Below, in pieces: positions 10,989-34,508 of a stretch of 40,461 nucleotides of DNA; position 1 is the first letter of the stretch, and each line of letters starts with the position of its first letter. The notes beneath the pieces were generated by a model. The model saw only the letters and a program-made list of their open reading frames with translations, ran no database searches and was not told the DNA's origin. The position numbers and the translations under genes are program-made. Source of the DNA: a virus; the IMG/VR virus record IMGVR_UViG_3300037493_004666, positions 1 through 40,461 of that record. One strand, given 5' to 3'.

Positions 10989-11194
10989 AACGACTTTTTG
11001 CTGGCCTTTGCAGGCGACACCAGAGGGTTGTATTTGGCCAAGAGCCGCAGCGCAACTCCAGCGGCTGAGTCTGGCTCCGCTGCCTCAAGCGCTGCCGCGA
11101 CTTCTGCCGCATCCACCTGCAGCGACCGGGCAATTAAATCCAAGTCGCCATAGGTGGTGGTCAGCTCTTCAATAGCCAACTCAAGCGCAGTCAT
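10985..11194 (-). CDS. Small protein of unknown function, 69 aa
   Basis: A longer open frame starts at 11293, but ATG at 11194 (MTALELAIEELTTTYGDLD) shares one base with the upstream stop (TAATG) and is the credible start. The protein is acidic and helical in its first 45 residues, with a lysine-rich tail (AKASKKSL). Its place after the tail tube genes suggests a small tail assembly factor; no family recognised. Confidence 0.7.
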   Translation of the reverse strand: MTALELAIEELTTTYGDLDLIARSLQVDAAEVAAALEAAEPDSAAGVALRLLAKYNPLVSPAKASKKSL

Positions 11195-11712
11195 TATGTG
11201 TTGCTCCAACCGTACTGGTTGCCGCGAGGATGGATGGTGAAGGTGCACTTGGATTCTGCACCGGGCTGAGCGTCGATCTGGAACTGGCTGCACCGAGCGT
11301 TAAACGCATATGCAATTGTGCTTGCTCCGTCCACCGCTGTGATTACAAAAGTGCGATCAATCAACCCGCTGTAAGCGTCACCGCGAATTAGCAGCAGCCC
11401 CGCATCAGAAGGATTCCAAGCAGAGGTAATGGTCAGGCTTGTAGGTGCGGACTGCACAGGGATTTTATCAGACTGACGCGAGCCAGCAACCCCGAAGGAG
11501 GCCACCGCATCGTCTTGCCCAAAGACAGGTACAGCTTCAACGGTAAGGGGCACGCCTGCTGCGCCTGTGCCGTTGGCTGCCGTACCGACGATGGTGGCGA
11601 CCTGCAGCGCCCAGACCGCCAAGTTGGCGGTGGTGAAGGCTGTCGGAGTTGCGCCTGATTGCATCCACATGGATGCGCTGAAGCCGGGTAATACTTTTGC
11701 TGGTGCTGCCAT
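11194..11712 (-). CDS. Major tail (tube) protein paralogue B, 172 aa
   Basis: The protein shares long identical blocks with the gene just upstream in transcription: QDDAVASF, AGSRQSDKIP, SAPTSLTIT, RGDAYSG, DRTFVI and QFQIDAQPGAE. It is the size and position of a siphophage tail tube protein. Paralogue B has a longer, Gly/Ala-rich N-terminal insertion (TIVGTAANGTGAAGVP) and ends RGNQYGWSNT. It has a good ribosome site (AGGAGA) before ATG 11712. One copy may build the tube and the other a specialised ring or decorated position, or both may be mixed; sequence cannot decide. Confidence 0.8.
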   Translation of the reverse strand: MAAPAKVLPGFSASMWMQSGATPTAFTTANLAVWALQVATIVGTAANGTGAAGVPLTVEAVPVFGQDDAVASFGVAGSRQSDKIPVQSAPTSLTITSAWNPSDAGLLLIRGDAYSGLIDRTFVITAVDGASTIAYAFNARCSQFQIDAQPGAESKCTFTIHPRGNQYGWSNT

Positions 11713-11727
11713 TTTTGATTCTCCTAA

Positions 11728-12222
11728 TTAAACGTTGTTGCACCAGCCGTACAGGTTGCCGCGAGGCTGAACGCTGTAGGTGCATTTTGCTTCAGCCCCG
11801 GGCTGAGCGTCGATCTGGAACTGGGACACGCGCCCAATAAACGAATAATAAACAATGTTGGTGCCGTCTGTGGCAGCAATCACAAAGGTACGATCCACCA
11901 CCCCGCTGTAGGCGTCACCGCGCAGCAGCTGCGTGACGGTGTCCGATGGATCCCAAGCCGCCGTGATGGTCAGCGAAGTTGGAGCTGACTGAGCCGGGAT
12001 CTTGTCACTTTGACGCGAGCCTGCCACCGAAAACGATGCGACAGCATCATCTTGTCCAAACGCAGGCACAGCCTCAATGTCCATTAAGTTGCCTGCGACA
12101 GCAATTGCAGCTACGCTTGCGACCAGCGACAGCTGCGCCAGCGTTAGCACCACAGGCGAGGCCAAAGGCTGAGCGTACATCGTAGCGGCAAAGCCGGGCA
12201 AAATTCTATTTGGGAGAGCCAT
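11728..12222 (-). CDS. Major tail (tube) protein paralogue A, 164 aa
   Basis: The first of two tandem tail tube genes, sharing the blocks listed for paralogue B and ending RGNLYGWCNNV. It starts MALPNRILPGFAATMYAQ after AAGGAAATTAAATT. The pair must come from a tandem duplication, with divergence mainly in the N-terminal third and in surface loops. It follows the head-tail connector genes, as tail tube genes do. Confidence 0.8.
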   Translation of the reverse strand: MALPNRILPGFAATMYAQPLASPVVLTLAQLSLVASVAAIAVAGNLMDIEAVPAFGQDDAVASFSVAGSRQSDKIPAQSAPTSLTITAAWDPSDTVTQLLRGDAYSGVVDRTFVIAATDGTNIVYYSFIGRVSQFQIDAQPGAEAKCTYSVQPRGNLYGWCNNV

Positions 12223-13022: not shown

Positions 13023-13694
13023 TTACATCACCAACGGCTTGTATGGCCGCAACAGCGTAGACACCCCAAAGGGGATTTCCCTTAGGTTGGTATCGGTTGT
13101 GTTGCTGCGGTTGTTGTACAGGTGCGTAAACAGCAGCAAACCTGCTTGCTTGATGACCGGGTAAGCTGCCAAAGGGCTGGCTGCTGTGATGTAGTCAATA
13201 AAGATTGGAGCTGTCATGCCGCTGTTGATGCTGGTGGGCAAAGTTTGCACAACCACCTTGTTGCCGGAAACATCATAATAATATTGGTCTACAGCCACCG
13301 TGACTATGGTGGATGGGCTGCTGTCATTCCAATATTTTAGGGAACTAATGGTTACTCCGCCCACCGCCGGGTCAGCGCTCTGGCTTACCTCCGGAAGATC
13401 GAAACAGATGGGGGATGCGACAATGCTGTCCATTCCATACCACACCCGATAGGAGGTGGCAAAAATCGACATGCCAAGATAATCTTCAATCGCTTGCCGG
13501 ATAGCCAATTCCAAGCTCACCAAATAAGTGTCTTGACTAGCATCATCAAAAAGATTCAACTGCTGCCGAATGACCGCTGGCGTCAACCACGCCGTGGTGT
13601 TGTCGCGCAACGTCTGCTCAACTTTGGAATAGTTGAATGGGTTGCGCGTTGCCCCTGAAAAGGGCAATCCATACTGATTGGTGTCAGCAGCCAT
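13023..13694 (-). CDS. Head-tail connector protein (HK97 gp6-like), 223 aa
   Basis: The segment TYLVSLELAIRQAIEDYLGMSIF matches the helical signature of gp6-like adaptor proteins (E..l..A...ie.ylg..l), followed by a beta-rich domain (SLKYWNDSSPSTIVTVAVDQYYYD) and a C-terminal helix (LLLFTHLYNNRSNTTD) also seen in that family. It forms the ring directly below the portal. The gene follows the second capsid gene by a few bases. Confidence 0.8.
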   Translation of the reverse strand: MAADTNQYGLPFSGATRNPFNYSKVEQTLRDNTTAWLTPAVIRQQLNLFDDASQDTYLVSLELAIRQAIEDYLGMSIFATSYRVWYGMDSIVASPICFDLPEVSQSADPAVGGVTISSLKYWNDSSPSTIVTVAVDQYYYDVSGNKVVVQTLPTSINSGMTAPIFIDYITAASPLAAYPVIKQAGLLLFTHLYNNRSNTTDTNLREIPFGVSTLLRPYKPLVM

Positions 13695-13697
13695 CGG

Positions 13698-14744
13698 TTA
13701 TGTCTCGATCAACCGAACCCCAGCAAAGGGATTGCGCACCGTGCTGACCATGCGCTTTTCGGCATACAGGGTAATAAAGCCGGGTGTGGTTTCCTCCATG
13801 GCTTGGATGGTCATTTCCTCCACGTCAGCAATGGTCATAAACTGAGGCCAGTTTGCCAAGTACACAGGGATGGCTCCAACTGTGCCGTGCGGGTCAAGGT
13901 AAGGGTTGGGAATGACCGGAAAGCCAAGAATGTTGACTGCTGGGCCTTCACCAAGTTCACCAGTTTCCACCAACGAATACGGGCCAGTGCCGCCGTTGTG
14001 AGCATAGGCTCGGATTGCGGTGATGTAGGTCGGGTGCATGTGCCAAGCAGTACCGGGCAAAGACCAGTATTGAGGAGGCAAAGCGCCAGCCATGTCTTGC
14101 AGGCTTTCCAAGTCAGCAGCAGTTGCGGCGTGACCAATGGTGGTCAACGTGTGCAGACCATTGGTGATTGCCGTTCCAGATGTGCCATAGGCAGCTGTGG
14201 CGCCAGCTGCGCCGGGATAGTAGTTCAGGCCGCGCAAGCCGTTGCTGTTGCCTGTGGCGGTGGTGGTGCTTCCAGCTTGGTCATTGTTGTCTGCCATTGA
14301 GGCAGCTTCGATGGTCGAAAATTCCAACATCAGATCTTCAACCAGCGTTTCGTTTAGGTAGTTGATATCTGACATTGCAGCGGTGCGGATCGGCAATTGA
14401 GCCGTGATCACGCGAGTCGGAATTTGCCAAATTGTGGTGGTCGTGCCGGGCGTGCCTGTGTTGGGGGTGAATGTGTAGCCCCAAGGGTTTGTTTGGTTTG
14501 CTGCATTGCCAGTTTTGGCTACAAATTGCGCGCTGGATCCAGCCACTTTTATTTGTCGTGCGCCCAGACGGAATGGGTTTGCATATCGCAACGCCGCGAA
14601 TGCGTCATCAAAATATGTCTTACCGCCCTGACCATCCCCGCTTCCTGTCAACAACGCGGCTTCGCGCAGATCAATCGTGATTCGCTCACCAGTCGTCAGC
14701 GTTTGTTTAATGCCAGCCAGAATGTTTTCGGTGATGGTCTTCAT
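13698..14744 (-). CDS. Major capsid protein paralogue 2 (HK97 fold, no delta domain), 348 aa
   Basis: The protein is clearly homologous to the capsid gene just upstream: GDGQGGKTYFDDAFAALRYAN, FPIRTAA-like LPIRTAAMSD, NNDQAGS, GLRGLNYYPGA, LPPQYWSLPGTAW and the C-terminal PGFITLYAEKRMVSTVRNP all have counterparts in paralogue 1. The shared region begins at residue 36 here but at residue 113 in paralogue 1, so this copy lacks the N-terminal scaffolding (delta) segment. It has its own ribosome site (TTGGAAAAATAA before ATG). It is probably a second capsid component, for example a vertex or minor subunit, but an equal partner is also possible. Confidence 0.88.
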   Translation of the reverse strand: MKTITENILAGIKQTLTTGERITIDLREAALLTGSGDGQGGKTYFDDAFAALRYANPFRLGARQIKVAGSSAQFVAKTGNAANQTNPWGYTFTPNTGTPGTTTTIWQIPTRVITAQLPIRTAAMSDINYLNETLVEDLMLEFSTIEAASMADNNDQAGSTTTATGNSNGLRGLNYYPGAAGATAAYGTSGTAITNGLHTLTTIGHAATAADLESLQDMAGALPPQYWSLPGTAWHMHPTYITAIRAYAHNGGTGPYSLVETGELGEGPAVNILGFPVIPNPYLDPHGTVGAIPVYLANWPQFMTIADVEEMTIQAMEETTPGFITLYAEKRMVSTVRNPFAGVRLIET

Positions 14745-14769
14745 TTATTTTTCCAAGTAAGTTTGCAAC

Positions 14770-14799
14770 AATGAGGGATGGAGTAACCCACCCCTCATT
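14770..14799 (-). promoter_or_regulatory. 12-bp mRNA hairpin between the two capsid genes
   Basis: In the 63-base gap between the two capsid genes two 12-base arms pair fully (one G-U pair) around a 6-base loop. Arms on the plus strand are AATGAGGGATGG (14770-14781) and CCACCCCTCATT (14788-14799). No uridine run follows, so it is a poor terminator; it more likely protects or processes the mRNA or tunes expression of the second gene. Confidence 0.75.
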
Positions 14800-14807
14800 C
14801 AAGCTGC

Positions 14808-16157
14808 TTAGTTTGCAGCAGTAGCAGTGGAGCGATAACGGATCACCGCATTAGGATCACGAATGCTGGTGGCCAAACGCTTTTCTCCGTAGAAAGTTAT
14901 GAATCCTGGGAGTGTCTGGTCGTAGCGGCGCATAACCATGTTCAAACGATCAATGATGGTGTGGCCACGCGTCCAGTCAGCAAAGTACATCGGATATTTG
15001 CTCACGGTGCCTGCAGCGGCTGTAGTCAACTGGCTTGGGCTGTCCAAGTATTTATTGACCACAACGTCGAAGCCAAGCAGCTGGCCAACAATACCATCAA
15101 CCGACAGAGAATCAACAGAGTTGAAAATCGGGCGACCGTTGGTGTCTTGCAGGCCGCGAATTGCTTGCAGCAAGATTGGGCTGACCATGAACTTTGTGGC
15201 AGGCGTCCAGTATTGTTGCGGCAACGCGTAGATGGTGTTGATGACGTCCTTGTATGTGACGTTATTCAGCCCAACCGTGTTGACGTTGGAAGTCAACTGG
15301 TCATAGGTTGCTACGCTGTGCAATCCAGTAGCAGATCCAGTGCCTGAGGAACCAAACGCTGCAACCGAAGTGGTGCCGCCAGCATAAACTGTATTTGCGC
15401 CGGGATACTGATTCAAGCCGCGCAGACCGTCAGCGCCGCCAGTCGCCACTGAAGTGCCTGTGCCAGTTTGATCGTTGTTGCTGATCATTGATTGGGCTTC
15501 GCTTTGGGCAAACTCAGCCAGCATATCGTCAACCACGTTGGCTTCCAAACCGTCGATGTCGTCCAGCGCTGCCGTGCGGATTGGGAACTGAACGTTGATG
15601 TCTTTCAGAACCAATTGCCAGATGCTGGTGTTCTCAGTCGTGGGTGATCCGTTGTTCTGGATTGCGTAACCCCACTGTGCACCAGCGTTGCCTGTCTTGA
15701 CACGGAATTGATAGCTGGATCCATCAGTCGCCACGGTGCGCGAGAGGCCGCGCATTTGGTTAGCCAAACGCAGAGCAGCAAACACAGGATCGTAAGCAGT
15801 ACGGCCACCCTGACCGTCACCGCCAGCAGCAAGGCCAGCCGCCTCCTTCAAATACGCTGCATATTGGCTTTCATCTGCAAACATCTTCAGCTCTTTTTCG
15901 CCTTGACGTCCACCGTTGTAATACGCGGCCAATTGCTCTTTGACAGCACGGTTTACATCACCGCGAACGGTCTTGGCAATCTTGATAATAGCGGGGGCTT
16001 GAACGGAAGCAATTTTGGCTTCCAGAGCTGCTATTTTGCTTTCAATTTCAGCACGTGCTGCGTCGATGGCAGCTGGGATTTTGGCTTCAACGGCCAGCAC
16101 GCTTTCGGCTTGTTTGGCTTCGATAGCGTCGAGTTTGTCGATAATTTCTTTGGACAT
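14808..16157 (-). CDS. Major capsid protein paralogue 1 (HK97 fold with N-terminal delta domain), 449 aa
   Basis: Residues 1-60 are a helical, Glu/Lys/Ala-rich segment (IDKLDAIEAKQAESVLAVEA ... IESKIAALEAKIASV), the covalently attached scaffold (delta domain) of HK97-type capsids, removed by the prohead protease encoded upstream. Residues about 113-449 are the capsid fold, ending PGFITFYGEKRLATSIRDPN. It follows the prohead protease by three bases, the canonical order. The ribosome site is AAAGG before ATG 16157. This copy is presumably the bulk shell protein, as it alone keeps the scaffold. Confidence 0.92.
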   Translation of the reverse strand: MSKEIIDKLDAIEAKQAESVLAVEAKIPAAIDAARAEIESKIAALEAKIASVQAPAIIKIAKTVRGDVNRAVKEQLAAYYNGGRQGEKELKMFADESQYAAYLKEAAGLAAGGDGQGGRTAYDPVFAALRLANQMRGLSRTVATDGSSYQFRVKTGNAGAQWGYAIQNNGSPTTENTSIWQLVLKDINVQFPIRTAALDDIDGLEANVVDDMLAEFAQSEAQSMISNNDQTGTGTSVATGGADGLRGLNQYPGANTVYAGGTTSVAAFGSSGTGSATGLHSVATYDQLTSNVNTVGLNNVTYKDVINTIYALPQQYWTPATKFMVSPILLQAIRGLQDTNGRPIFNSVDSLSVDGIVGQLLGFDVVVNKYLDSPSQLTTAAAGTVSKYPMYFADWTRGHTIIDRLNMVMRRYDQTLPGFITFYGEKRLATSIRDPNAVIRYRSTATAAN

Positions 16158-16160
16158 GAT

Positions 16161-16940
16161 TTAACCTTTGAGTCTGTGAGTGAGAATTTGCAATAATTCG
16201 CGTTGCTCAAGAGCCGCGAGAATTTCTGCGTTCGTGGTCGCTTCCGCATCAGCATCACGCTGCGGCGTCGCAGTTTCATTGGGCACCCGTACAGCATCAC
16301 GCTGCTCAAGCACTTTCTTGAAAGTTGATGCGGCAGCGACCGCATCACTCTTGGAAAGACCAGCATCACGCAGGGCTTGTTCCATGATTTTTAAATCTGC
16401 CGTTCCATCAGGCCGGAAATATTCTAAGCGGCTGACGTTGGCTTCGGGATTGTTTGGGTACATGACCACAGAGACCTCGCGCAAGCCGCCTTTGGTGATC
16501 TGGAAGTACGCTTCCTCAGACTGGTCAGGCTCCCCAGCTGCATTGACCATTTGATAGGTCTCTGCGTATGCGCCAACAGACACCCCGCCAAACAGCGTGG
16601 GCGATTCTGTCATGATTGTGTGCATGTCACGGCCAGCTGCCGTGTTCATGAAGATGCGCCCTTCAGCCGTCATTCCCGAGGTAGAAAAGTCAAATGAACT
16701 CCACTCGCCAATTGGCATGCCATCACTGTTATGGTTGAGGAACATAGGCAAGGGCTTGCCCGATTCTACAAACGCCTGTGCCCAGTCCATGAACCCTTCA
16801 GGCTGATAATTGAACCGCCTCCCGTCAGCACCCTCACGAGCGCCCCACGTGGTGACTGTGGCTTCAATTTGGCCGGGATTTCCTTGCTGTCCTGCGGCGA
16901 GTTTTGCCTCGCAAATTAACGTCAACTGTTTGGGTGTCAT
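16161..16940 (-). CDS. Prohead protease (HK97 family, peptidase S78), 259 aa
   Basis: The serine protease matures the capsid by removing the delta domain. The His lies at residue 70 in MFLNHNSDGMPIGEW, Ser at 121 in LFGGVSVGAYAE, and the following LREVSVVMYPNNPEA is the family's third signature. The C-terminal about 80 residues are charged and likely self-cleaved. GAGGTAATCA precedes ATG 16940. Order portal - protease - capsid is canonical. Confidence 0.92.
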   Translation of the reverse strand: MTPKQLTLICEAKLAAGQQGNPGQIEATVTTWGAREGADGRRFNYQPEGFMDWAQAFVESGKPLPMFLNHNSDGMPIGEWSSFDFSTSGMTAEGRIFMNTAAGRDMHTIMTESPTLFGGVSVGAYAETYQMVNAAGEPDQSEEAYFQITKGGLREVSVVMYPNNPEANVSRLEYFRPDGTADLKIMEQALRDAGLSKSDAVAAASTFKKVLEQRDAVRVPNETATPQRDADAEATTNAEILAALEQRELLQILTHRLKG

Positions 16941-28523: not shown

Positions 28524-29243
28524 ATGAAAGTCTCCCTCATCAGCTACACGCCCAACGCGGCGCAATTGTTGGTGTTCACTAAATCCACCCGACTCACGAT
28601 GTCGCCGGGATTGATGGACGAAATTATGAGCTGGCCGCAAAGCCGCATCGAACTGGAATTGGCGTACATGGCCGCAACGATCCCGAGCAGTTGGGAGTTT
28701 GTGGATTATGTGTTCTTGGTGGAAGGGGTGAGCCGTGCCTACACCCACCAGCAGGTACGCACGCGCAACGCCAGCTTTGCACAGCAGACTATGCGCGTGC
28801 TGGATATGGGCGAGTATGACTATGTGCTCACCGAGCGAAACAAAGACGACAAAATTTCACAGAGCATTATCGCCAACACAAACCGCTACATCCGCAACAG
28901 TTATGCGACGATGATTAAGTCTGGGGTTGCTCCCGAGGATGCACGCGGCATTCTGCCCACCAACATCGCAACCAACATCGTTTGCAAATTTAATTTGCGT
29001 ACCTTCAGCGACCTTTGCAAGAGCCGCAGCGGAGGACGCACCCAGAACGAATACCAGCAGGTGGTCAACGCTATGGCCGATGCGGTGCTGGCGGTTCACC
29101 CGTGGGCGGAACGCTTTTTGTTTCCTGCGCGGCGTAATGCGTTTGACGAAATCGAAGCATTTGCCAAAGAGGAATTTGGAGGCGACTTGCTCAAGAAGGG
29201 CAAGCTGTTAAAAATTGTAGACCAAATGAGAAAGGCATCATAA
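28524..29243 (+). CDS. thyX: Flavin-dependent thymidylate synthase (ThyX), 239 aa
   Basis: Converts dUMP to dTMP using methylene-tetrahydrofolate, FAD and NADPH. The ThyX motif region is QQVRTRNASFAQQTMR (residues 77-92), where the classical RHR reads R79-T80-R81 and the conserved Ser is S84. ILPTNIATNIVCKFNLRTFS and the C-terminal LFPARRNAF support the fold. Length fits. It ends TAATG with the HAD gene. Substitution of His80 is worth noting but occurs in other phage ThyX proteins from memory. Confidence 0.9.
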   Translation: MKVSLISYTPNAAQLLVFTKSTRLTMSPGLMDEIMSWPQSRIELELAYMAATIPSSWEFVDYVFLVEGVSRAYTHQQVRTRNASFAQQTMRVLDMGEYDYVLTERNKDDKISQSIIANTNRYIRNSYATMIKSGVAPEDARGILPTNIATNIVCKFNLRTFSDLCKSRSGGRTQNEYQQVVNAMADAVLAVHPWAERFLFPARRNAFDEIEAFAKEEFGGDLLKKGKLLKIVDQMRKAS

Positions 29244-30025
29244 TGAAATACGTAATTTTCGATCTTGACAATTGTTTGGCTGATGACCGCGAGCGCATCA
29301 AATTGATCAATTGGCAGGAACAGCACCCTGACCAGCGGTACGCAGATTATCACCGTGACATAAGCAACGACTTGGTGGGCAATTATGACAAATTTATTTC
29401 TGCAACGCTGAACGCAACACCTGTGTTCCTTACTGCGCGACCTCACACCGTTGGCCGCAGCAACATTCGGCTGCAAACGATGTATTGGCTCAAAGAGCAT
29501 TTGGGCGTTGAAGATCCCATCCTGCTCATGCGCAACGTGGGCGACCACCGCCCATCGGTCGAGTTGAAGCGCATGCAGCTCAGTCACCTTTCGGAGTGGG
29601 ATGTGCGTTATGAGGACATCGTGTGCGCGTATGATGACCGCGAGGATGTGGTGGCCATGTACAAGAGCTTTGGCATCCGTGCCGAGGTGCTGGCCATTCA
29701 TTTGGTGGACGCAATGGCGGCGCCAATGATTAGCCAGACCAATGCAGGTGACGTGTTGGGCGCAATGGCGGCGACATTCCGAGAGCGTTCAGGCGCCTAC
29801 AAAGACAACTACAAGATGGTTCCTAAGTTGTGTGAAGTTTTGTTCCCTAATGGCGTGCCGCCAGAGGTCTTGTTCACGCCGCAATGGCATCTGTTTGAAT
29901 TGAAATTAGTGAAGCTCAGTCGATTCGCAATCAGCAATTTGCAGCACCTTGATTCCATACACGATGATGCAGTTTATTCTGCAATGATTGAAGCCTGTTT
30001 AATTAACTCGGAGAAGCTGAAATGA
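29243..30025 (+). CDS. HAD-family phosphatase fused to a MazG/DUF6378-like domain, 260 aa
   Basis: Residues 1-160 are a HAD fold: motif I VIFDLDNCLADD (nucleophile D7, acid D9), motif II VFLTARPHT, and motif IV AYDDREDVV. Phage proteins of this type resemble polynucleotide kinase 3'-phosphatase domains and nucleotidases. The C-terminal about 85 residues (FRERSGAYKDNYKMVPKLCE and FELKLVKLSRF) look like DUF6378, a MazG-like helical domain. The fusion suggests nucleotide housekeeping in the thymidylate operon. TAATG joins it to thyX and ATGA to the SDR gene. Confidence 0.8.
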   Translation: MKYVIFDLDNCLADDRERIKLINWQEQHPDQRYADYHRDISNDLVGNYDKFISATLNATPVFLTARPHTVGRSNIRLQTMYWLKEHLGVEDPILLMRNVGDHRPSVELKRMQLSHLSEWDVRYEDIVCAYDDREDVVAMYKSFGIRAEVLAIHLVDAMAAPMISQTNAGDVLGAMAATFRERSGAYKDNYKMVPKLCEVLFPNGVPPEVLFTPQWHLFELKLVKLSRFAISNLQHLDSIHDDAVYSAMIEACLINSEKLK

Positions 30026-30699
30026 GCAAAATATTAGTGACTGGCGGCGCTGCTGGCTTGGGCAAAGCTATTGTCGAAAACTTAATGGCGTGGGATCATG
30101 ATGTAATTTCATTCGACACTAAATTTGGACATGACGTGCGTGATCCGCAAGGGACATATGGCAATTGTCCTGATCTGGACGTGGTAATTAATTGCGCTGG
30201 AATAAACATTACAGGCTGGTTGCAGGACGTTTCCGACAAGGATTGGGACGACACCATGGACATTAACGCCAAGGGCATTTTTAAGCTGAGTAAGTGGGCG
30301 TTGCCGAGCCTTATTAAATCAAAAGGCACTATCATCAACATAGTGTCTAACGCATCCCACATGCCCATGACAACTTCGTTGGCTTACAACGCTTCCAAGG
30401 GCGCAGCCCACATCATGACGCTGCAGCTGGCGCGTGAATTAACCAAGGCACACGGCATCACAGTCTTTGGGATCAGCCCCAACAAGTTGCGCGGCACGAA
30501 CATGAGCAAGGACATTGAAACCCAAGTGATGAGGCACAGAGGGTGGACGCGAGAATTCGCCGCGCAATACCAAATGAATTCGCTGCTTGCTGGCGTTGAA
30601 ACTGAACCAAGCGTGTTGGCGGAATTTATTGGATTTTTGCTGAGCAACAAACAGCGTCACATTTTTCTTTCTGGTTGCATCATTCCTTACGGAGCTTAA
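30022..30699 (+). CDS. Short-chain dehydrogenase/reductase (SDR), 225 aa
   Basis: The NAD(P) loop TGGAAGLG (7-14), NCAG (57-60), Asn82, Ser109, Tyr122 and Lys126 (YNASK) form a complete classical SDR catalytic set; the Ser-Tyr spacing of 13 is canonical. Length is slightly short for classical SDRs because the C-terminal substrate loop is reduced. In a phage operon of nucleotide genes it might act on a nucleotide sugar, or on a small metabolite; the substrate is unknown. Confidence 0.87.
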   Translation: MSKILVTGGAAGLGKAIVENLMAWDHDVISFDTKFGHDVRDPQGTYGNCPDLDVVINCAGINITGWLQDVSDKDWDDTMDINAKGIFKLSKWALPSLIKSKGTIINIVSNASHMPMTTSLAYNASKGAAHIMTLQLARELTKAHGITVFGISPNKLRGTNMSKDIETQVMRHRGWTREFAAQYQMNSLLAGVETEPSVLAEFIGFLLSNKQRHIFLSGCIIPYGA

Positions 30700-30700
30700 T

Positions 30701-31168
30701 ATGAATTTTAAAATTGAACAAATTGCCATTGTCCCAAATGACCCCGAGCGTGCCATGCGGCTGTTTGCAAAAATTGGGTTGACTGACTGGGCAAAAGATC
30801 ACGTGGTTGCCGGAGGTCGTGTGTGGGGCCAAATGGGCAACAACGCCGCTGATTTGGCTTTCAACTATCAAGCCACAGGCGACAAGAATTTGGAGTTGGA
30901 GGTGTTGCATTACACGGAGTCTCCAAACTGGATGGAACGCTATGGAACCAGCGCATCGCATTTGGGCATGCACGTAACGGCAGAAGAGCTGGTGAAATGG
31001 CGCAGCCTGTTTGCTTCGGAAGGAATTGCCGTTGCGCAAGAAGTGGAAACCATTTCGCACACCAACCCAGTCATCGACGGCAAACGCTGGTACACCTATG
31101 TGATCTTTGATACTCGCGCAATTCTCGGAATTGATTTGAAATTTATTGTCCGCCGCGAGGCCATATGA
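30701..31168 (+). CDS. VOC (glyoxalase/bleomycin-resistance-fold) family protein, 155 aa
   Basis: The fold is suggested by KIEQIAIVPNDPERAMRLFA at the start, LELEVLHYTESPNWM in the middle and SHLGMHVTAEELVKWRSLFA in the second half, with candidate metal ligands Glu and His (ELEVLHY, HLGMH). It resembles uncharacterised phage VOC proteins. It is translated next to the SDR and before the proofreading exonuclease (ATGA). Substrate unknown. Confidence 0.75.
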   Translation: MNFKIEQIAIVPNDPERAMRLFAKIGLTDWAKDHVVAGGRVWGQMGNNAADLAFNYQATGDKNLELEVLHYTESPNWMERYGTSASHLGMHVTAEELVKWRSLFASEGIAVAQEVETISHTNPVIDGKRWYTYVIFDTRAILGIDLKFIVRREAI

Positions 31169-31701
31169 TCATCGTCTTTGACACCGAGACTACAGGGCTG
31201 ACGCTGCACCCGAATGCCGAGGTGCGCAAGCAGCCGCGCATGATCGAGTTTGGCGCGGCACTGCTGAGCCCAACCACTGGCGAGGTGGTGGACACGTGGA
31301 ATGTGCTAATTAATCCGGGTGAGCCGTTGCCTGCTGTGATCACTAAAATTACCGGGATCACCGATGAGGAATTGAAGGATGCCGCCCCGTTTGTGTCTTC
31401 GCTTCCGGCAATGCGAATGATGTTTGCTCAGGCCACTTGCGTGATGGCGCACAACTTACCCTTCGACCGGGCAATCTTGCGTGGAGAGCTGGCGCGTCTG
31501 GATGTGTTCGACTTCCCGTGGCCAACAACCGAAGTCTGCACCGTGGGACTGTACAAGGATGATTGGGGCCGCAACCCCAAGATGACGGAGCTGTATGAAT
31601 CGGTGATGGGCAAGCCGCTGGCGCAAACACACCGGGCGCTGGACGATGTGATGGCGTTGGTTGAAATAATTCAGAAAGAAAAATTATGGAATCTAAAATA
31701 A
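31165..31701 (+). CDS. DnaQ-like 3'-5' exonuclease (DEDDh), 178 aa
   Basis: ExoI is FDTETTGL (D6, E8), ExoII MAHNLPFDRAIL, and ExoIII THRALDDVMAL with the His of the DEDDh class, so the catalytic set is complete. It likely proofreads for the phage polymerase encoded next (16-base overlap), as epsilon does for alpha in bacteria. ATGA joins it to the VOC gene. Confidence 0.92.
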   Translation: MIIVFDTETTGLTLHPNAEVRKQPRMIEFGAALLSPTTGEVVDTWNVLINPGEPLPAVITKITGITDEELKDAAPFVSSLPAMRMMFAQATCVMAHNLPFDRAILRGELARLDVFDFPWPTTEVCTVGLYKDDWGRNPKMTELYESVMGKPLAQTHRALDDVMALVEIIQKEKLWNLK

Positions 31702-34508
31702 ATTCGTTTCCTCAGCTGCGCGTACGCACCGAATTTTCTTTCAGGCAGGGCTTTGGCCCAGTCCCTGCTGTTGCGGCTGCGCTGCAGGGCTTAGGGTGTG
31801 GCGCGGCGGCAATGGTGGACGGTGGGACTTGGGGCCACGCGACTTGGTTCAAGCAATTAAACAAAGTAGGCATCAAACCGATGTTTGGCACGGAGTTGGT
31901 TTTGCCAAAAGACGATGGGCGCAAGCCTGTGGCGTGGGCACTAGCGGAGGACACCCGAAAATTCTACAACTTCAGTACCGCCGCCCGACAACCCGAGGCG
32001 GATCTGCACGCGTTGTTCCGAGAGGCCAAAGGCGTCATCCGGTTTGCTGGCGCAGCGCTGACGGATCCAGACTGCTTCGACTTCATCGACCTGAACCCTG
32101 CCAGCCCACTCCAACAACGCGCTGCGCTGGAGTTGCACAAACGCACCAAGAAGCCCTTGGTCATTACCAGCGACAACGCCTATCCAACCCGAGAGGATTA
32201 TTCTGCCTTCATGGCCATCTCAGGCAAAGAGAGAGTAACGCCGCAACATCTGTTGACGGTTCAAGAGCTGCGCGCATGGTTGCCGATGCTGACTGCTTCC
32301 CAGTTTAAGCGTGCGGTGAACAACGTGCACGAAATTGCCGAGCGTTGCGCCAGCACCCTTCAGCAAGCGCCGTTGATTAATTTCCCCGGCAATTTGCGCC
32401 AGTTAGTTTTGGACGGAAAAGTGGCACGAGTTGCCCTTGGTCACATTAATGTGTGGGATGCGGAGTATGAGGCCCGAATGGAGCGCGAGCTGGCAATGAT
32501 TGCCAAAAAAGAGTTTGAAAGCTATTTTTTAGTTGTGGCTGATTTAATTGCTTGGGCAAAGAAGTGCATGCTGGTTGGCCCCGGTCGTGGATCGTCCGCA
32601 GGATCATTAGTTTGTTATTTGCTCCGCATTACTGAGGTGGACCCGCTTGTGCACGAATTGCTTTTTGAGCGTTTCATCGACCTGACGCGTGACGATTTAC
32701 CTGACATTGACATTGACTTCAGCGACTCCAAGCGTGAGCAATGTTTCGTTTATCTGTCTGAGAAATATGGACCAGACAAGGTTGCGCGAATCGGCAGCAT
32801 TAACAACTTGCGTGCCAAAAGCGTTATTGCGCGTGTTGCTGAAAAGCTGGGCATTCCTGACCGGGAAAAATTCGATGTGCTCAATGTGCTTGTTGAATAT
32901 TCGTCTGGGGATGCAAGGTATGGCCACTCATTGGAGGACACCATACACCAGACAGATCCGGGCCGCAAATTTATTGCCGCCCACCCAGAGGCTGAGGTCA
33001 TGTTTCGGTTGGAGAATCACGCATCCCACACAGGCGTGCACGCGGCAGGGGTGATCGTTTGCAACGAATCCATCAGCGACTTTTGCACCGTGGGCGCAGA
33101 AGGCGTGGCGCAGATTGACAAGCCATATGCTGAAGCAATTGGGTTGCTAAAAATTGATGCGCTGGGGCTTCGCACGCTGGGCGTAATTGAGGATGCTGGG
33201 GTGGTGACTGGCGAGGAATTGTATGGATTAAAACTGGATGATCCAAATGTTTTTGCGCTGCTCAACGCTGGCCGTTATACCGGGATTTTTCAATTTGAAG
33301 GACGCGCCCAGCGGCTTGTGGCTGCAAAAATACATATTGATTCATTCCGAAGGATTGACCACATCACTGCGCTGGCACGACCAGGCCCATTAGGTGGTGG
33401 TGCGTCGCAAAAATATATTGCCCGAGCCGCTGGCCGCGAGGCTGTAAGTTATCGACACCCATCAATGGAGACTTACCTTGGCCCCACGATGGGGGTTGTG
33501 TTGTACCAAGAGCAGGTGATGCGCATCTGTTTTGAGATTGGACAATTTAGTTGGGAGCTGGTTTCAGAGGTGCGCAAGGCAATGAGTGGGCGCAAGGGCA
33601 AAGAATATTTTGATCGACGCGGCGAGCAGTTTGTTGAAGGCGCAAAACAACGAGGCTTGTCGGAGGAAAGCGCACGCGAAATCTGGGCTGAAATATGCAC
33701 CTTTGGAGCGTGGGGCATGAACGCAAGTCACACCACAAGCTATGGAATCATTAGCTACTGGTGCGCTTGGATGAAAACCTATCACGGGCTGGCTTACGCG
33801 GCAGCATCTTTGCGCAATGCCATGAGTGAGCTGCACGCATATGAAATGTTGCGTGATATGCGCTCTGAAGGTATTGAGTACACTGCGTTTGATGTTGAAA
33901 TTAGTGGCTTGGATTGGACTGTTGTGGATGGGAGGTTGGTGGGTGGATTTATGAATCTGGAAGGGTATGGACCAGCCAAAGCAGCGGCTGCAGTTATTGC
34001 GCGAAAAGCAGGCAAATTGGACAGAGAAAAAGTTGCCAAAGCAACCGTCAGATTTCAAGAATTGTATCCACTCACCGTTGCATATAAAGACATTTATTTG
34101 AACCCAGAACAACATGGTTGCCGCGCTGGCAGCACGATCACTCGATTAGACAATTTGCCAGACAGGGGTGATGTTCTGACCATCGTTAGAATGGTGCGTA
34201 AATCCTCCACCATTGCATCCCCAAAAGAATTGCGGGATGAAAACGAAACCAGGCGAGTCGCCGCCCGTGATGGCAAAATAATTGCTGGGCCATCCTTGTT
34301 TGTGGATCTGTTTGTGGCTGATGATGCTGGCGTGCCAATTACTTTGCGCTTTGATAGGTTTTCGTTTGAACCTGCTGGGCGGCTTGCTTACGAAAGATTG
34401 CTGCTTGGGGATGACTTGCTAATCCGTGGCAAGCGCATTCCTGACTTTGCCATGATCAAAGTGCAGCGAATTAAATGTTTAAACCGAGAGGTAAATTTTG
34501 ATGCGTAA
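31686..34508 (+). CDS. dnaE: DNA polymerase III alpha subunit (C-family, DnaE-like), 940 aa
   Basis: C-family polymerase core with VGPGRGSSAGSLV, PDIDIDFSDSKRE (Asp340, Asp342 and Asp344, the site of the first two catalytic aspartates) and LLKIDALGLRTLG with Asp491 as third. ARPGPLGGG and YQEQVMRICFEIGQFSW are typical too. A helix-hairpin-helix region and an OB fold (TIVRMVRKSSTI...LRFDRFSFEP) end the protein. The N-terminal PHP domain is present, but its HxH metal motif (HLRVHSDYS in E. coli) reads QLRVRTEFS, so PHP activity is probably lost. At 940 residues it is shorter than E. coli alpha (1160). Confidence 0.95.
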   Translation: MESKINSFPQLRVRTEFSFRQGFGPVPAVAAALQGLGCGAAAMVDGGTWGHATWFKQLNKVGIKPMFGTELVLPKDDGRKPVAWALAEDTRKFYNFSTAARQPEADLHALFREAKGVIRFAGAALTDPDCFDFIDLNPASPLQQRAALELHKRTKKPLVITSDNAYPTREDYSAFMAISGKERVTPQHLLTVQELRAWLPMLTASQFKRAVNNVHEIAERCASTLQQAPLINFPGNLRQLVLDGKVARVALGHINVWDAEYEARMERELAMIAKKEFESYFLVVADLIAWAKKCMLVGPGRGSSAGSLVCYLLRITEVDPLVHELLFERFIDLTRDDLPDIDIDFSDSKREQCFVYLSEKYGPDKVARIGSINNLRAKSVIARVAEKLGIPDREKFDVLNVLVEYSSGDARYGHSLEDTIHQTDPGRKFIAAHPEAEVMFRLENHASHTGVHAAGVIVCNESISDFCTVGAEGVAQIDKPYAEAIGLLKIDALGLRTLGVIEDAGVVTGEELYGLKLDDPNVFALLNAGRYTGIFQFEGRAQRLVAAKIHIDSFRRIDHITALARPGPLGGGASQKYIARAAGREAVSYRHPSMETYLGPTMGVVLYQEQVMRICFEIGQFSWELVSEVRKAMSGRKGKEYFDRRGEQFVEGAKQRGLSEESAREIWAEICTFGAWGMNASHTTSYGIISYWCAWMKTYHGLAYAAASLRNAMSELHAYEMLRDMRSEGIEYTAFDVEISGLDWTVVDGRLVGGFMNLEGYGPAKAAAAVIARKAGKLDREKVAKATVRFQELYPLTVAYKDIYLNPEQHGCRAGSTITRLDNLPDRGDVLTIVRMVRKSSTIASPKELRDENETRRVAARDGKIIAGPSLFVDLFVADDAGVPITLRFDRFSFEPAGRLAYERLLLGDDLLIRGKRIPDFAMIKVQRIKCLNREVNFDA

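Follow-up and report, generated by a model that had tools for sequence, protein, structure and literature searches.

In most tailed phages a single capsid protein makes up the entire shell, T4 being the textbook exception (PMC3185693). The locus described here raises the question why a phage of about 40 kb keeps two HK97-type capsid genes side by side, only one of them with a scaffold-like domain, and what the second protein does. The window, i.e., the whole stretch of DNA that was analyzed, is a virus record of 40,461 bases with a 127-base repeat at both ends and is therefore probably complete. We favor a two-subunit HK97-type shell, in which the first protein (MCP1) would be the bulk subunit and the second (MCP2) a minority subunit, most likely forming the vertex pentamers. 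This reading may be right and is put forward tentatively.

Two Paralogous Capsid Genes in the Head Module

The minus strand of the window carries a head module of the standard type, with genes for the terminase large subunit, the portal, an S78 prohead protease, MCP1, MCP2 and a head-tail adaptor. The gene of the protease, a candidate maturation protease (16161..16940; peptidase S78, Pfam PF04586, 1.3e-6), is followed by the MCP1 gene (14808..16157; 449 amino acids), whose product matched PF05065 (1e-29), phrog_10 (1.9e-29) and the capsid of the Rhodobacter capsulatus gene transfer agent, RcGTA (1.1e-9). MCP2 (13698..14744; 348 amino acids) matched PF05065 as well (5.6e-14), and the Ad1-like head-tail adaptor (13023..13694; phrog_40, 6.5e-13) starts 3 nt behind it. 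The original prediction had placed tandem HK97-type capsid genes at this position. Both open reading frames were found at these coordinates on the minus strand, with PF05065 (Phage_capsid) scores of 104.2 bits for MCP1 and 52.6 bits for MCP2 at a curated cut-off of 24.2. The proposed paralogy was borne out by an alignment over 347 residues with 40% identity (E=5e-71), by a profile-profile comparison (probability 100%, E=8e-87) and by the C-terminal PGFITxYxEKR block common to both proteins. Elsewhere on the plus strand, the window encodes a DNA polymerase III alpha-type polymerase (31686-34508; PF07733, PF17657) and, at 29243-31168, a cluster of metabolic-looking genes inside the phage genome, comprising a PNKP-type HAD phosphatase, a short-chain dehydrogenase and a weak glyoxalase-like protein under the Pfam cut-off.

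The model obtained for MCP2 reached a pLDDT of 66.6 and a pTM of 0.68. Its best Foldseek match was the RcGTA capsid 6tb9 (E=1.2e-13, TM-score 0.69 by target length), closely followed by HK97. The modeled protein retains the complete mature fold, E-loop and C-terminal P-domain included. An HK97 fold of MCP2 is thus supported at the level of prediction. The alternative that MCP2 is a decoration protein of a different fold is contradicted by its PF05065 match, by the match of its model and by the profile comparison with MCP1. The MCP1 model was poor (pLDDT 47.8, pTM 0.38), probably because the alignment holds little diversity, and for this reason the two folds were not superposable; its best Foldseek match was still the RcGTA capsid (E=2.8e-6). 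The HK97 fold predicted for MCP1 rests on the Pfam and RcGTA sequence matches given above together with this match of the weak model.

The two proteins differ at their N-termini. MCP1 carries an extension of about 100 residues, predicted to be helical, ahead of the mature fold. MCP2 lacks it, and the asymmetry that had been foreseen was supported in this respect. The extension, a scaffold-like domain of the delta type, covers the N-terminal approximately 105 residues (15843..16157, minus strand; boundary approximate, since the alignment with MCP2 begins near residue 103). Helices were predicted at residues 2-50, 66-81 and 96-108, in a model that is poor overall. An in-frame TAA stands directly before the MCP2 start codon (TAAATG), so no hidden upstream extension of MCP2 exists. 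Addition of the scaffold to MCP2 by readthrough from MCP1 was considered, as both genes share the same frame in the window, and was rejected on account of this stop codon. MCP2 had further been expected to start at the mature fold. The absence of the N-terminal domain agrees with this, but the exact start does not, as approximately 26 conserved residues (consensus ITEKILxGIKQTLxTG...) are kept ahead of the region common with MCP1. Possibly they are what is left of the helix that closes the N-terminal domain in MCP1.

Distribution and Selection of the Capsid Pair

Two paralogous HK97-fold genes, as in shells of the T4 gp23/gp24 type, are retained together: of 302 fetched loci, 275 have them next to each other and in unchanged order, the cultured Methylophilaceae phage P19250A among them. 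These 275 comprise 272 forward loci, two cut from the window itself and one with a frameshifted MCP2, and they do not equal the number of independent genomes because many loci overlap or repeat one contig. Extraction yielded 234 pairs, in which the same contig sometimes recurs, and thinning reduced these to 56. Five of the 302 loci were controls, namely Venkman and four outgroup capsids. Retention in the family is universal: the remaining family loci end within or beside the pair at a contig edge, with contig L239 as the one exception. As the searches targeted relatives of MCP1 and MCP2, the frequency of such pairs in other phages cannot be read from these counts. Besides P19250A, the relatives are many viral contigs from aquatic sources (lake, coastal), and the family is one of viruses of bacteria from lakes and coasts. 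A siphophage-type tail is inferred for it from gene content and from P19250A, which has been called a siphovirus (PMC8163748). Methylophilales phage Venkman and P19250A are reported to share a genus-level cluster (PMC8163748); no homologue of MCP1 or MCP2 was detectable in Venkman.

L239, a contig in a bacterial metagenome-assembled genome, was considered as a relative with a single capsid gene and rejected. There (L239:1-860) MCP1 and the hairpin described below are joined to genes of an unrelated phage, which in L303-L305 follow an unrelated capsid-like gene, and further on a cellular-looking open frame lies on the opposite strand; the contig was therefore read as chimeric. In the unrelated phage (L305) a closely similar hairpin occupies the equivalent position, and L239 was probably joined at this common sequence. 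The sole broken MCP2 copy is the frameshifted one, split into two overlapping frames on a single contig (L123:5800-6752) by a frameshift or an assembly error. The window also has tandem paralogues of the major tail protein (11728-12222 and 11194-11712, minus strand; 60% identical). Two copies of this gene were found in 133 of the 198 loci with enough downstream sequence and one copy in 65, so that this duplication, unlike the capsid pair, is variable across loci.

In a maximum-likelihood tree of the 56 pairs and four outgroup capsids, MCP1 formed one clade and MCP2 another (SH-aLRT 99), which shows a single duplication that predates all sampled members of the family. Owing to long outgroup branches and a quick tree search, the position of the root is less sure than the split between MCP1 and MCP2. 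Within a genome MCP1 and MCP2 are 40-50% identical, while between genomes identities are at least 59% for MCP1 and at least 49% for MCP2. Both paralogues are under equal purifying selection, with median dN/dS values among close pairs of 0.084 (MCP1) and 0.087 (MCP2). Universal retention combined with purifying selection indicates that MCP2 matters.

Differences between the paralogues were located by segment, with borders set by eye on the MCP2 model. The A-domain of HK97 lines the capsomer axis. The corresponding region showed the lowest consensus identity between MCP1 and MCP2 (40% versus 42-67% in the other segments). Within MCP2 no other segment is less conserved, and most of the deletions fall into it. 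This divergence fits a different capsomer geometry without proving it; it only slightly exceeds that of the remaining segments and does not tell a pentamer role from others.

A Conserved Terminator-Like Hairpin Between MCP1 and MCP2

The gap between the two genes measures 49-77 nt in nearly all loci and almost always contains a GC-rich hairpin, usually with a U-tract. With the cutoff set at 6 or more pairs, 5 or more of them G-C, a stem was found in 98% of 161 distinct gaps, compared to 5.5% of control windows taken from the same strand of the same loci and 5.0% of shuffled gaps. When a U-rich stretch (4 or more T among the 9 bases following the stem) was required in addition, the values were 94% of the 161 gaps, 1.0% of the controls and 1.4% of the shuffles. 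In a slightly earlier set of 124 gaps the folding energies lay on average 2.7 SD below those of shuffled sequences. The consensus fold of 42 diverse gaps had five pairs, four of them with pair-keeping changes on both sides; the MAFFT alignment of the gaps is rough, and the covariation is to be taken as support, not as proof. At the family level, the gap shows the pattern of an intrinsic terminator, a GC-rich stem-loop followed by a U-tract. No other strong terminator-like site in the operon comes near it in frequency: across 60 long loci (612 kb of sense strand), 56 of 65 such sites fell between MCP1 and MCP2, and 13 sites were found on the antisense strand.

In the window, the hairpin comprises 13 bp (14770..14799, minus strand) in a gap with a minimum free energy of -26.3 kcal/mol (z -5.15). 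The stem is strong and has no strong U-tract behind it, for which reason this copy may be a processing or stability hairpin. An outer 5-bp stem (GCAGC...GTTGC) extends the structure to 14765-14807. Outer stems of 5 bp around hairpin and U-tract (GTTGC...GCAAC) were seen in approximately 29 distinct gap sequences, e.g., in L132 and L154, and outer helices of at least 5 bp occurred in 27% of the gaps versus 7% of shuffled flanks. In one locus (L169:3390-3989) an extra open reading frame of approximately 199 amino acids lies between hairpin and MCP2, with a gap of 642 nt. On visual inspection it looks like a GIY-YIG/NUMOD homing endonuclease; Pfam gave no match for it.

If, by analogy with T7, the hairpin acts as a terminator, the arrangement predicts that synthesis of MCP2 and of everything behind it would be reduced relative to MCP1. 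Downstream of the hairpin there are also genes for tail and connector proteins, some of which are required in high copy number, so the hairpin is not a control on MCP2 alone.

Possible Roles of MCP2

In the shell we propose, MCP1 would be the bulk subunit with its N-terminal approximately 100 residues as a built-in scaffold, which the S78 protease encoded upstream would remove at maturation. MCP2 would be an old duplicate that lost its scaffold. The hairpin after MCP1 would end most transcripts, or separate them off, leaving less MCP2, which would co-assemble as a minority subunit on a prohead templated by MCP1, most likely as pentamers at the eleven non-portal vertices. Assuming T=7, a head with twelve vertices, one of them occupied by the portal, would have 55 vertex subunits and 360 others, which would fit a reduced dose. 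The presence of MCP2 in the virion and at the vertices is plausible, with indirect support from the terminator-like hairpin and from the A-domain region, which has diverged strongly and contains deletions.

The dose argument depends on how the hairpin is read. It could be a stabilizer of mRNA 3'-ends or a processing site, setting no ratio, with MCP1 and MCP2 made in similar amounts. The weak U-tract in the window, the many-copy tail genes behind the hairpin and the lack of a second terminator-like peak of comparable frequency in the operon all speak for this; however, a U-tract behind the stem in 94% of the relatives is the signature of an intrinsic terminator, and we regard equal amounts as somewhat doubtful. 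MCP2 could also sit away from the vertices, in hexamers at random or fixed positions, tuning head size, stability or maturation. Its complete mature fold with E-loop and P-domain could fit any capsomer, and retention and selection are silent on its position. This hexamer role would give no special reason for the A-domain deletions, though, and the reduced dose predicted from the hairpin better suits a minority site, so that we consider it unlikely.

A place outside the finished head is more improbable still. As a protein without a scaffold of its own, MCP2 might act in assembly or elsewhere in infection, as a chaperone, a size regulator or the subunit of a separate small particle, and be absent from the finished head or present in traces; yet the strong conservation of both the complete capsid fold and the place in the head operon points to the shell. 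That the pair is merely a chance or decaying duplication without function is hardly conceivable. Duplicates do arise in this genome, as the tandem duplication of the tail-tube gene demonstrates, but a single old duplication event, hundreds of loci without a verified loss and a dN/dS of 0.087 contradict decay of MCP2.

Comparison With Known Capsid Systems

The closest solved relative of the pair by sequence profile and predicted fold is the RcGTA capsid (6tb9/6tsu). The RcGTA entries name one major capsid protein (Rcc01687), and no paralogue pair was seen there. In HK97 gp5 and the T5 capsid the scaffold domain is the N-terminal part of the capsid protein (PMC3185693). MCP1 resembles them in this, with a prohead protease gene adjoining it, whereas HK97 and T5 have a single capsid protein and here a second paralogue without the domain is present. 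P19250A has both genes (0005 and 0006) and the hairpin, with 61% (MCP1) and 59% (MCP2) identity to the proteins of the window. Gene 0005 is annotated as 'gene transfer agent capsid protein' and 0006, which is MCP2, as 'hypothetical protein', leaving the pair unmarked in the record.

Our search of the open-access literature turned up neither tandem HK97 paralogues in a small siphophage nor a description of a scaffold-like domain on one of two close tandem paralogues in a siphophage-type genome of about 40 kb. Duplication of a siphophage capsid gene is not without example, as Colossus has a second, distant copy. What is new is the conserved terminator-like hairpin between tandem capsid paralogues. 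Its nearest counterpart is found in T7. This phage has a single terminator for its own RNA polymerase, Tphi, which immediately follows capsid gene 10; expression of the genes after it depends on readthrough (PMC5592923). Both elements directly follow the major capsid gene; in T7, however, the next gene is gene 11 and not a capsid paralogue, and Tphi acts on the phage RNA polymerase.

Two HK97-fold paralogues in one phage are known already from T4, which the original prediction had cited as precedent for a two-subunit shell: gp24 forms the pentamers and gp23 the hexamers, the pair probably stemming from a gene duplication (PMC3185693). T4 is a large myophage whose gp23 and gp24 share approximately 21% similarity, while MCP1 and MCP2 are 40% identical in a phage of about 40 kb and, unlike gp23 and gp24, have a scaffold-like domain fused to one paralogue only. 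It is possible, and we say so with reserve, that a widespread family of small aquatic siphophages arrived independently at a T4-like shell by tandem duplication, with a self-scaffolding hexamer protein, a scaffold-free vertex protein and a ratio set by a conserved terminator between their genes. If true, they would offer a small, simple model for the way in which one capsid protein gives rise to separate hexamer and vertex proteins, and for the share of a shell that must carry scaffold. With P19250A in culture, a two-subunit shell comparable to that of T4 is directly testable.
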